NCBI GenBank assembly: GCA_000961695.1
Contig: LADW01000031.1
Location: 1-64,000 of the forward strand
From: Hyphomonadaceae bacterium BRH_c29
GTDB taxonomy: Bacteria; Pseudomonadota; Alphaproteobacteria; Caulobacterales; Hyphomonadaceae
Length of the DNA: 64,000 nucleotides
Direction of reading: 5' to 3'
Positions 41,971 through 44,985 of the stretch are shown one piece after another. The number at the start of each line of letters is the position of its first letter. Position 1 is the first letter of the stretch. The translations under genes were made by a program, and so were the position numbers. Below the pieces are notes generated by a model. It did no database searches. It saw nothing but the letters and a program-made list of their open reading frames with translations, and was not told the DNA's origin.

Positions 41971-43032
41971 TCAGTCCCAGAGCGAGCCCAATACCAGGCG
42001 GTCCCGCCAGCTTTCGCGAACCGGCGCACGGGCCGGGCCGCAGCTGGCGCAGACATGGTCGTGCAGCCGCCGGGACAATACCCAGCTGGACTCGCCTGTA
42101 CGACCACCTGCCCGCTCGACAGCATCGACAATGAACCTCAGCGTATCGTCGCAGAGGTCGGTATTGTCCTTGCCCTTGGCTTCGGCGAGGCGCCAACCGG
42201 TCGGATCCAGGCGTAAGGCCAAAACCGCCCGTTCGATGCCATCGCGCAGGACGTAGACCGCCATGCGCCCGCCCGCGATGTCGCTGGTGAAATCGCGAAG
42301 GCAGTTGCGAAACTCCAGCGCGACATTTTCCAGCATCTTGCGGTCGTTGACCGGCACGAAGGCCGGCGAGAGCATCGGTGCCAGAATCGCCCCCCCGAAG
42401 TGGACCGGCTGCAGGTCTTCCGCCGCCATGTCGAACAGGCGGGCGGACGAACCGGCACGCTCCCATCGCTGAGCGATGGCCGGGGCCGACCTGCCACCCT
42501 GCATCAGGGTTGCCAGCCGGAAGGCCTCGGCCAGATCCTCCACAGCCCCGGGGCTGTCCGGAATATTGCCGAGGATCTTCGGAACCCGCAGCACAGCCGG
42601 AAGCCGACGGATCAGGTGCAGCTGGGCCGGACGGATTTCATCCGTATACCGCAGCACCTGAGCCGAGCCCTCATCCGAGAACAAGGACAGCAGCAGGTCA
42701 TAGTCCGCCGCGTCCCACAGCGCTTCATCGAGCCGGCCAAGCGCCTTCAGCAAACCATGCGGCGCCTCCCCCTGCATGAGGCAGCGGGCGACCTCGCCAT
42801 CCCGGGCACGTTCGACCGCGTGGACGATCTCACCCACGTCGCCCCCGCGACCGAGCAGGATCGCAGCGGCATGACGGCGCGCCGACGGCAGAGCCAGGAA
42901 CGCCATGTGCGGCGCAGGCCAGGCCAGCGCGATGGATTCACCATGCGCCCCTGCCAGAAATCGCAGCAATGGCGTCACAGCCCCCGCGCGACCGTGCGGC
43001 CGCACGAGGCTCCGGGTCATGGGATTGCCCAT
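41971..43032 (-). CDS. Hypothetical protein, PcfJ-like motif
   Basis: Function unknown. The 353-residue product is soluble with no signal peptide. Near residue 240-275 it has ALEFRNCLRDF then GGRMAVYVL, resembling the conserved region of PcfJ-type proteins found in conjugative and phage elements; this is a weak pattern match. A Cys-containing C terminus (CASCGPARAP) is present. The start ATG at 43032 has an excellent AAGGAGG ribosome site 6 nt upstream. A perfect 26-bp palindrome and a -10-like TATGAT lie just upstream, so it appears to be separately and strongly regulated. Confidence 0.75.
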   Translation of the reverse strand: MGNPMTRSLVRPHGRAGAVTPLLRFLAGAHGESIALAWPAPHMAFLALPSARRHAAAILLGRGGDVGEIVHAVERARDGEVARCLMQGEAPHGLLKALGRLDEALWDAADYDLLLSLFSDEGSAQVLRYTDEIRPAQLHLIRRLPAVLRVPKILGNIPDSPGAVEDLAEAFRLATLMQGGRSAPAIAQRWERAGSSARLFDMAAEDLQPVHFGGAILAPMLSPAFVPVNDRKMLENVALEFRNCLRDFTSDIAGGRMAVYVLRDGIERAVLALRLDPTGWRLAEAKGKDNTDLCDDTLRFIVDAVERAGGRTGESSWVLSRRLHDHVCASCGPARAPVRESWRDRLVLGSLWD

Positions 43033-43393: not shown

Positions 43394-44605
43394 TCACCCC
43401 TTCACGCACACGACCTGCTTCAGGGTGTGGACGATCTCCACAAGGTCGGTCTGCGCGGCCATGACCCTGTCGATGTCCTTGTAGGCCATCGGCGTTTCGT
43501 CGATCACGCCGGAGTCTTTCCGGCATTCCACGCCTTCGGTTGCCGCCACGTGGTCCTCCAGCGAGAAGGTCCGCTTGGCTTCCGACCGGCTCATGGCCCG
43601 CCCTGCTCCGTGCGAGCACGAACAGAACGAGTCTGCATTGCCCTTCCCGCGCACGATGAAGGATTTCGCCCCCATCGACCCGGGAATAATCCCAAGTTCG
43701 CCCGCCCCGGCACGCACAGCGCCTTTACGGGTGACCCAGACATCTGCGCCGAAATGGTGTTCCCGCTCCACATAATTGTGGTGGCAGTTCACCGCTTCCT
43801 TCTCCAACGAGAAGCTGGGGAAGAACTCACGCAGAGCAAACAGGACACGGTCCATCATCACTTCGCGGTTGAGGCGCGCATAGTTCTGCGCCCAGCCGAC
43901 GGCGGCCGTGTAGTCGTCGAACATGTCCTCCCCTTCCACGAAGAAGGCGAGGTCCTTGTCCGGCACATGGTAGCCGAGCACCCGCTTCTCCAGTGCCTCG
44001 CGGGCCTCCTGGATGAAGTAGGTGCCGAGAATGTTCCCCGTCCCGCGTGAGCCGGAATGCAGCATCACCCACACACGGTCCGCTTCGTCGAGGCAAAGCT
44101 CGATGAAGTGGTTTCCGCCGCCCAGTGTTCCCAGCTGTTTGGCAAATGCCGTACGCTGAATACGCTTGTGCTTGCGCAGGATCGCATCAAGCTGATCCGC
44201 AAGACCAGATGCCCGCAACGCCGTTGCAGACCGCGCAGGCGCTTCCTTGTGGTTGCCACCTTTGCCGTTGCCAACAGGCACCTTGCGTTCGATCTCGCTA
44301 CGGATAGCCGACAGGCTGTCCGGCAGGTCGTTCGCCGTGAGGCTCGTACGGATGGCCATCATCCCGCAGCCGATGTCGACACCGACAGCAGCCGGAATGA
44401 TCGCACCCTTCGTGGGGATGACAGATCCGACCGTCGCGCCGCGCCCATAATGGACGTCCGGCATCACGGCCAGGTGCGAGTGAATGAAGGGCAAACCCGC
44501 AACATTCTCAAGCTGACGCCGCGCACCGTCTTCAACCGGCACGCCTTTCACCCAGGCCTTGATGCGCCCACCGGCGCTGGTTTCGATCACTTCAAATTCG
44601 CTCAT
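43394..44605 (-). CDS. rtcB: RNA-splicing ligase RtcB
   Basis: GTP- and manganese-dependent ligase joining RNA ends with 3'-phosphate or 2',3'-cyclic phosphate to 5'-OH ends, used in RNA repair and tRNA-type splicing. The 403-residue product has GVDIGCGMMAIR, HSGSRGTGN, CHHNYVEREHHFG, GSMGAKSFIVRGKG and SHGAGRAMSR, the last holding the His that is guanylylated. These are metal and GMP-binding motifs. ATG 44605 is the start; the open frame upstream to 44788 would translate the leader. No rtcA or archease is seen beside it. The leader folds into alternative hairpins. Confidence 0.95.
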   Translation of the reverse strand: MSEFEVIETSAGGRIKAWVKGVPVEDGARRQLENVAGLPFIHSHLAVMPDVHYGRGATVGSVIPTKGAIIPAAVGVDIGCGMMAIRTSLTANDLPDSLSAIRSEIERKVPVGNGKGGNHKEAPARSATALRASGLADQLDAILRKHKRIQRTAFAKQLGTLGGGNHFIELCLDEADRVWVMLHSGSRGTGNILGTYFIQEAREALEKRVLGYHVPDKDLAFFVEGEDMFDDYTAAVGWAQNYARLNREVMMDRVLFALREFFPSFSLEKEAVNCHHNYVEREHHFGADVWVTRKGAVRAGAGELGIIPGSMGAKSFIVRGKGNADSFCSCSHGAGRAMSRSEAKRTFSLEDHVAATEGVECRKDSGVIDETPMAYKDIDRVMAAQTDLVEIVHTLKQVVCVKG

Positions 44606-44913
44606 CGTTTCAAGCTTCTTTCTAAAAAGCTCCTCCTGACAAGCCCTCCGCGCGGTCCTTCGGGTTTTGGAAAGACAAAGAAAAACCCTCCGGGCGAGAT
44701 CGCGCGGAGGGCGGCATAAGACCCTTTCGGGCCCCCGGGACTGACTGTCAGCCCCTATCCAGCTTCCTCCATGCGGAATCGTTCGCAACCCTCAAACCGG
44801 GCCGCGTCATTCCATGGCTGATTGGTGACTAGATACGACATCATGTCGCTCCGTTGCTGAATGGATGCGCCGTATGATGGAAGCGCGACGGTCCGTCAAG
44901 CAGTTTTCGAAAG
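44606..44913 (-). promoter_or_regulatory. rtcB leader with mutually exclusive hairpins (possible attenuator)
   Basis: Read on the minus strand, CCCTCCG (44711-44705) pairs with CGGAGGG (44692-44686), followed by TTTTT (44685-44681): a terminator. The same first arm, as GCCCTCCGCGCG (44712-44701), pairs perfectly with CGCGCGGAGGGC (44654-44643) downstream, which would prevent the terminator. After that, GGAGGAG lies about 25 nt before the ATG with an AGCTT/AAGCT hairpin between. This is the layout of transcription attenuation. Segment 44713-44913 upstream has no recognised gene; it may hold the promoter and a sensing domain. No riboswitch class was identified. Confidence 0.45.
44681..44712 (-). 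terminator. Candidate conditional terminator in the rtcB leader
   Basis: Seven-bp GC-rich stem (44705-44711 with 44686-44692), 12-nt loop, T run on the minus strand at 44681-44685. It lies before rtcB rather than after a gene, so it would be an attenuator if active. Confidence 0.45.
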
Positions 44914-44940: not shown

Positions 44941-44985
44941 TCTGTCTATTTCACAAGAAATCCATTTCCCGCCAAAGGCTTGTCT

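Follow-up and report, generated by a model that had tools for sequence, protein, structure and literature searches.

The window (the whole stretch of 64,000 nucleotides that was analyzed) carries on its minus strand rtcB, which encodes an RNA ligase of 403 amino acids (43394 to 44605, with the start codon at 44605; Pfam PF01139, E value of 4e-130). The gene upstream of the rtcB leader appears by eye to be metallophosphoesterase-like, and its strong terminator (44943 to 44916) sets it apart from the rtcB transcript. After rtcB comes a 353-amino-acid ORF (41971 to 43032) without a Pfam or NCBIfam match; the ORFs 3' of rtcB were inspected by eye in 21 loci. A putative promoter lies at 44899 to 44871 (TTGACG at 44899 to 44894, a 17-nt spacer, and CATACG at 44876 to 44871). 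A generic scan gave no sigma-70 match to this region, and the promoter call rests on conservation, the motifs TTGAC and TCATA being invariant in all 23 Hyphomonas leaders. The sequence-only reading had set its proposal of attenuation against a transcript start downstream of 44640; the conserved promoter instead puts the expected start near 44864, which is likely upstream of all of the leader elements discussed.

Read 5' to 3', the leader begins with the 5' strand of a helix, P1 (44861 to 44855), just 5' of the Shine-Dalgarno sequence of an upstream ORF (uORF) of 28 codons plus TAG (44841 to 44755; MSYLVTNQPWNDAARFEGCERFRMEEAG) in a conserved frame. The window genome has an extra in-frame ATG one codon 5' of the uORF start, at 44844. 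Within the uORF are a covarying hairpin, P3 (44802 to 44788); strand 2 (AUGGAGG, 44772 to 44766), which occupies the final codons and forms the 5' half of the antiterminator, its UGGAGG being complementary to the CCUCCG of strand 3; and the 3' strand of P1 (44764 to 44758), a long-range helix linking the 5' end of the leader to the end of the uORF. Hairpin A (44754 to 44738) lies immediately 3' of the uORF stop and is followed by hairpin B (44735 to 44719) and the terminator, which consists of a 5' arm (strand 3, GCCCUCCGCGCG, 44712 to 44701) and a 3' arm with its U-tract (strand 4, CGGAGGG and UUUUU, 44692 to 44681). A distal arm (strand 5) lies 3' of the terminator, and the rtcB Shine-Dalgarno sequence (44637 to 44630) is followed by a further hairpin (44631 to 44613). 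The letters and positions given in the sequence-only reading are exact (GCCCTCCGCGCG at 44712 to 44701, CGGAGGG at 44692 to 44686, TTTTT at 44685 to 44681, and CGCGCGGAGGGC, the distal arm, at 44654 to 44643), and both of its pairings, that of the terminator arms (44711 to 44705 with 44692 to 44686) and the perfect 12-bp pairing of 44712 to 44701 with 44654 to 44643, were confirmed. It had missed the promoter, the uORF, the long-range covarying helix, and the hairpin between the rtcB Shine-Dalgarno sequence and start codon. In the predicted fold, this last hairpin brings the two closer together. Counted by eye, it is part of the fold predicted for the final 40 nt in 19 of the 23 Hyphomonas leaders, and its pairs change across the genus, e.g., AGCUUC/GAAGCU and AGUCUG/CAGACU.

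A DNA search found the leader in 23 of 61 genomes, namely, those with an intact or contig-cut rtcB of the Hyphomonas type, and gave no match in the other 38 at an E value of ≤0.001. A covariance model spanning the uORF end to the terminator (R1) recovered the same 23 rtcB leaders, some weak matches, and a decayed copy in genome G026 (contig C6, 19098 to 19286; L170), where a degraded attenuator adjoins an rtcB remnant that matches the last 24 residues of RtcB; attenuator and gene seem to be decaying jointly. Reuse of the leader at other genes was considered and set aside for the two best further R1 matches, the two that were read, which look like coding sequence and a generic terminator.

The leader folds to −112.6 kcal/mol, compared with −94.8 ± 4.8 kcal/mol for shuffled sequences (z = −3.7), and the predicted minimum-energy fold contains the 12-bp distal helix in place of the terminator. 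The structure made up of P1, P3, and hairpins A and B pairs in 94.1% of alignment cells, compared with 82.2% when shuffled and at most 54.9% when slid. Among 22 Hyphomonas sequences, P1 is paired in 94.8% of cells, with changes on both sides in 3 of 7 pairs. P3 (85.5% of cells paired) shows such changes in 5 of 5 pairs and hairpin B in 5 of 6, while hairpin A (99.4% of cells paired) shows one-sided changes only. The terminator is nearly invariant in both arms across the 22 aligned sequences, and its slight variation in the genus makes covariation there little informative about it. The covariation that the sequence-only reading had asked of related leaders is found in P1, P3, and B. A simple terminator scan of the window did not report the rtcB-leader hairpin, only the terminator at 44943 to 44916 and its opposite-strand counterpart. 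No Rfam family was matched in the window at the gathering threshold. In E-value mode all matches fell well short of it, and the highest, mir-275 (24.3 bits; gathering score, 56), was taken as chance.

The uORF looks translated, judging from its pattern of conservation. It has 28 codons in all 23 Hyphomonas leaders, starts with ATG (once TTG), and stops with TAG (once TAA); its frame has no internal stop in any of the 23, whereas the other two frames contain stops in 21 and 10 of them. Among single-change codons, compared between close pairs only and in 20 of the 23 Hyphomonas sequences, the synonymous share is 0.42 in the uORF against 0.23 expected (0.23 and 0.29 in the other frames). The peptide has no NCBIfam match. 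Between genera, the uORF peptides are unlike and the position of the GGAGG-like strand is constant; in Ponticaulis, a similar stretch near the uORF end is read in another frame. The upstream 200 nt, which the sequence-only reading had offered as a sensor, corresponds to this apparently translated uORF set inside covarying helices.

The order of uORF, terminator (mostly of the CCUCC type), and rtcB is common to Ponticaulis, Henriciella, Hirschia, Maricaulis, and Oceanicaulis and is also present in Brevundimonas, Caulobacter, Pelagibius, and several further lineages. A panel of 39 leaders (one from Hyphomonas) was compared; it was selected for having a terminator, and the relatives within it are not independent. 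A uORF found by rule (a Shine-Dalgarno-like motif and a stop 23 to 48 nt before the hairpin) is present in 34 of the 39, compared with 6% of shuffled upstream sequences; four uORF starts in the panel were assigned manually. In 35 of the 39 leaders, the uORF segment that pairs best with the terminator 5' arm has its 3' end within the final 25 nt of the uORF, counting the stop codon. The mean energy of the strand 2:3 pairing is −16.0 kcal/mol, versus −12.2 kcal/mol for shuffled uORFs, and 15 of the 39 leaders individually reach a P of ≤0.05. The Hyphomonas pairing consists of only about six strong pairs, and its energy in the window's own leader (L027) is not unusual relative to that of shuffled uORFs (P = 0.235). 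Complementarity is kept despite sequence change, e.g., as GGCAGGG/CCCUGCC in L112 and UUCGGGAG/CUCCCGAA in L084.

The strict terminator pattern occurs in none of 34 loci not titled alphaproteobacterial (4 of these are titled only “bacterium” or “Proteobacteria”). One panel member, L087 (“Pseudomonadota”), has a looser terminator pattern, and hairpins 5' of rtcB in Lysobacterales show no uORF layout by eye. Several arrangements at single loci were also seen. L069 has a CCUCC terminator about 290 nt 5' of rtcB with what appears by eye to be another short gene between; L194, probably the same record, has no terminator within the 230 nt searched. By eye, L137 carries a second CCCCTCCC copy between terminator and rtcB. 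L090 (Inquilinus) has a YrlA-type Y RNA, a tRNA mimic (RF02553), 5' of rtcB (1327 to 1447), and L122 has six tRNA genes directly 5' of rtcB (1339 to 1936). L104, L145, L148, L150, and L154 look tRNA-like by eye and have no Rfam match at gathering.

The predicted consequence of ribosome position was examined by folding RNA cut just 5' of the terminator 3' arm and counting the antiterminator as formed when at least four of its pairs were expected. It forms in 38 of the 39 leaders with a ribosome at the uORF start, in 22 with no ribosome, and in 1 with the ribosome at the stop; when the uORFs are codon shuffled, the early-ribosome state yields it in only 2 to 10 of 39. The corresponding numbers for all 23 Hyphomonas leaders are 22, 9, and 0. 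As the ribosome walks along the uORF, an ON zone, in which the antiterminator forms, gives way to an OFF zone of typically 7 to 12 codons. Exceptions are L064 (ON at one position only), L065 (ON at the first five codons only), L113 (never ON), and L077, L096, and L147 (ON again at the last codon). For full-length RNA at equilibrium in the early state, the terminator has a mean probability of 0.84 and falls below 0.6 in 5 of 39 leaders; since it wins in most leaders even when the ribosome is early, the switch would have to be kinetic.

A second set, which partly overlaps the first and includes some identical records (e.g., L176 and L064), comprised 100 upstream regions of 99 genomes, taken from 136 rtcB-bearing genomes of the order and including no Hyphomonas. 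A strong hairpin with a U-rich tail is present in 80 of these 100 loci, and 76 of the 80 have a uORF (the start in L247 was set by hand); terminator and uORF are thus found together by rule in 76 loci and are not found together in 24. With the ribosome early, absent, or at the stop, the antiterminator forms in 75, 33, and 0 of the 76. The pattern is the same for the 36 leaders whose similarity to the first set is below 60% (36, 15, and 0) and for 16 whose similarity both among themselves and to the first set is below 40% (16, 7, and 0), for which codon-shuffled controls give 24%, 20%, and 2%. As for a protector pairing that would bring back the terminator when the uORF is not translated, the no-ribosome state leaves fewer than four expected antiterminator pairs in 14 of the 23 Hyphomonas leaders, 17 of the panel of 39, and 43 of the second set of 76.

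RtcR, the activator of rtcBA operons, is present in 1 of 73 genomes with the attenuator and in 23 of 41 others; these counts carry no P value, and the genomes are related. The first 34 rtcB genomes contribute 0 of 16 with and 9 of 18 without the attenuator, and the 80 further genomes contribute 1 of 57 and 14 of 23. Genome G398, with two rtcB genes, one of them having a CCUCC terminator 267 nt upstream, was counted as lacking the attenuator. The lone attenuator genome with RtcR, G500 (L211 and L271), has one rtcB behind the attenuator and a second on the contig that carries RtcR. An rtcBA operon of the RtcR-regulated type was also looked for at the window locus, and no RtcR match was found in the window genome (G000, 94.6% complete). 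In L156 and L157, whose genomes have RtcR, a motif seen by eye 5' of rtcB is one that we take to be a sigma-54-like promoter.

What the uORF may sense is suggested by its codons. A run of one regulatory codon, as found in amino acid operon attenuators, was not seen in the uORFs, and codons for Tyr, His, Asn, and Asp, which we take to be the targets of colicin E5, are not enriched (13.6% in uORFs versus 14.5% in rtcB). In 28 dissimilar uORFs, codons 2 to 20 specify 12.93 distinct amino acids on average, against 11.48 (standard deviation, 0.23) expected for residues drawn from the pooled composition (z = 6.4); no other result of the analysis is as unusual. The excess is present in codons 2 to 11 (z = 3.8) and 11 to 20 (z = 2.2) and is not seen in the last 10 codons (z = 0.8), the +1 and +2 frames (z = −0.8 and −1.1), the antisense frame (z = 0.1), or rtcB windows (11.41 versus 11.45). 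The 48 ORFs taken as window genes show a deficit instead (z = −3.8 at N termini). Sixteen new dissimilar uORFs repeat the excess (13.38 versus 11.66 distinct amino acids; z = 5.6). The controls are less clean in the second set: the +1 frame and the last 10 codons give z values of 3.3 and 2.6 in the 36 leaders, where frame 0 gives 8.0, and 2.1 and 1.6 in the 16 representatives, where frame 0 gives 5.6. The nonrepeating codons may reflect selection for a uORF that samples a wide range of tRNAs ahead of the choice between termination and read-through.

Taken together, the rtcB leader is probably a ribosome-mediated, trp-like transcription attenuator that would sense failed elongation. Its parts, their conservation and positions, and their mutually exclusive pairing were established by sequence comparison and folding. 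At the level of sequence, it has the leader ORF with a ribosome-binding site and the intrinsic terminator between leader ORF and gene that are features of attenuators, and in predicted folds the antiterminator strand, inside the leader ORF, is left open by a ribosome that stalls early and masked by one that completes the ORF. Transcription would begin at ∼44864, and a ribosome would translate the 28-codon uORF. On reaching the last codons, the ribosome would cover strand 2, allowing strands 3 and 4 to pair, with termination at ∼44681 and rtcB off. A ribosome stalled in roughly the first two-thirds of the uORF would leave strand 2 free to pair with strand 3 while strand 4 has yet to be transcribed; no terminator would then form, and rtcB would be transcribed. 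With no ribosome, strand 2 of the Hyphomonas leaders would tend to be sequestered by P1 and local pairing, and most of these leaders would favor the terminator. We infer that termination and stalling of this kind occur in cells and that failed elongation is the natural trigger; it might arise from damage to the ribosome or from a tRNA that is cleaved or uncharged, and RtcB could help to repair some of these.

The sequence-only reading had envisaged a different arrangement, in which the distal arm (44654 to 44643) is the antiterminator that captures the terminator 5' arm and the upstream 200 nt senses a ligand or RNA. The distal pairing is perfect, belongs to the minimum-energy fold, and in the window leader reaches −30.4 kcal/mol, whereas shuffling the downstream sequence gives −13.7 kcal/mol (P = 0.003). 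Nine of the 39 leaders have it at a P of ≤0.05, and in these, among them Henriciella and Caulobacter types (GCCAGGAGGGG/CCCCUCCUGGC in the latter), it changes in step with strand 3. The other 30 leaders lack it at that threshold, the search for an Rfam family gave none at gathering, and the arm is transcribed after the U-tract (44685 to 44681) and therefore cannot compete when termination is decided. This arrangement is consequently very unlikely; the part of the original proposal that has good support is transcription attenuation of rtcB through competing hairpins, not the mechanism. Being made after the U-tract, the distal arm is better placed in the read-through RNA, where it may keep the anti-Shine-Dalgarno-like strand 3 off the rtcB ribosome-binding site. 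About as unlikely is the idea that the stretch acts as a separate small gene, encoding a functional peptide and ending in a terminator of its own, with rtcB simply transcribed by read-through. The promoter, Shine-Dalgarno sequence, 28-codon frame (kept in 23 of 23), and terminator would suit such a gene, but its peptides differ between genera while the pairing of uORF end and terminator persists, and Hyphomonas genomes without rtcB also lack the leader.

The remaining alternatives accept the attenuator and differ in its signal. That signal could be lost initiation, e.g., by ribosomes deprived of the anti-Shine-Dalgarno sequence after MazF-type cleavage; Escherichia coli RtcB is reported to rejoin a 3' fragment of 16S rRNA (Temmel 2017, cited in PMC7790460), and 22 of the 39 leaders form the antiterminator when no ribosome is present. 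However, that state does so in only 9 of 23 Hyphomonas and 33 of 76 second-set leaders, against 22 of 23 and 75 of 76 with an early ribosome, which makes lost initiation unlikely as the signal. A stronger contender, to which we give a substantial though minority chance, is a general response to ribosome-targeting antibiotics or amino acid shortage rather than specifically to RNA damage. The uORFs toiL and PA5471.1 are reported to sense translation stress, and a mixed-codon uORF cannot distinguish uncharged from broken tRNA; the product, however, is an RNA ligase, which would presumably be of use against broken RNA and not against drugs or starvation. A further reading, to which we give somewhat less than an even chance, takes the uORF as a tRNA test strip, in which selection would have packed the ON zone with maximal amino acid variety so that the loss of almost any tRNA would halt the ribosome and turn on the RNA ligase that could mend it, the ribosome replacing RtcR as sensor. 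The sequence-only suggestion of a response to tRNA fragments is better recast as a response to ribosomes that do not finish the uORF, with damaged tRNA as one of several causes.

Like attenuators of the trp, his, and ilv type, the rtcB leader is predicted to have a translated leader ORF, a terminator, and an alternative pairing freed by an early stalled ribosome, with the terminator restored once the leader ORF is finished. It differs from them in lacking a codon run, in controlling an RNA repair ligase, and in codons 2 to 20 that avoid repeats. Its nearest relatives in behavior are PA5471.1 and toiL. In Pseudomonas aeruginosa, the PA5471.1 leader peptide is reported to control armZ transcription and to react when the tRNA CCA-adding enzyme is lost, a condition in which ribosome stalling increases; the toiL uORF of E. 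coli topAI is reported to answer several translation stresses by stalling at different positions. PA5471.1 serves another gene, and its output is drug efflux rather than RNA repair; toiL acts via the ribosome-binding site and Rho, whereas the rtcB leader has a predicted intrinsic terminator. RtcR/sigma-54 control of rtcBA likewise acts on rtcB, and RtcR is itself activated by tRNA fragments in Salmonella (PMC7790460), but this control relies on a protein activator, and RtcR is nearly absent where the attenuator is present. Among the matches listed in a search of literature mostly outside subscription journals, no title concerned rtcB attenuation, and a term search of the main text of a Caulobacter architecture paper (PMC4117421) found no mention of rtcB.

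The model can be tested directly through the predicted RNA end at the terminator, the uORF, and the two strands that pair. RtcB is widespread, but as far as we know, how bacteria induce it has been elucidated chiefly for RtcR operons; the attenuator described here is a concrete proposal for the control of rtcB in many alphaproteobacteria that lack RtcR. If it is correct, the nonrepeating uORF would represent a new attenuator design, reporting on many tRNAs rather than on one amino acid, and the failure of translation would itself summon RNA repair.
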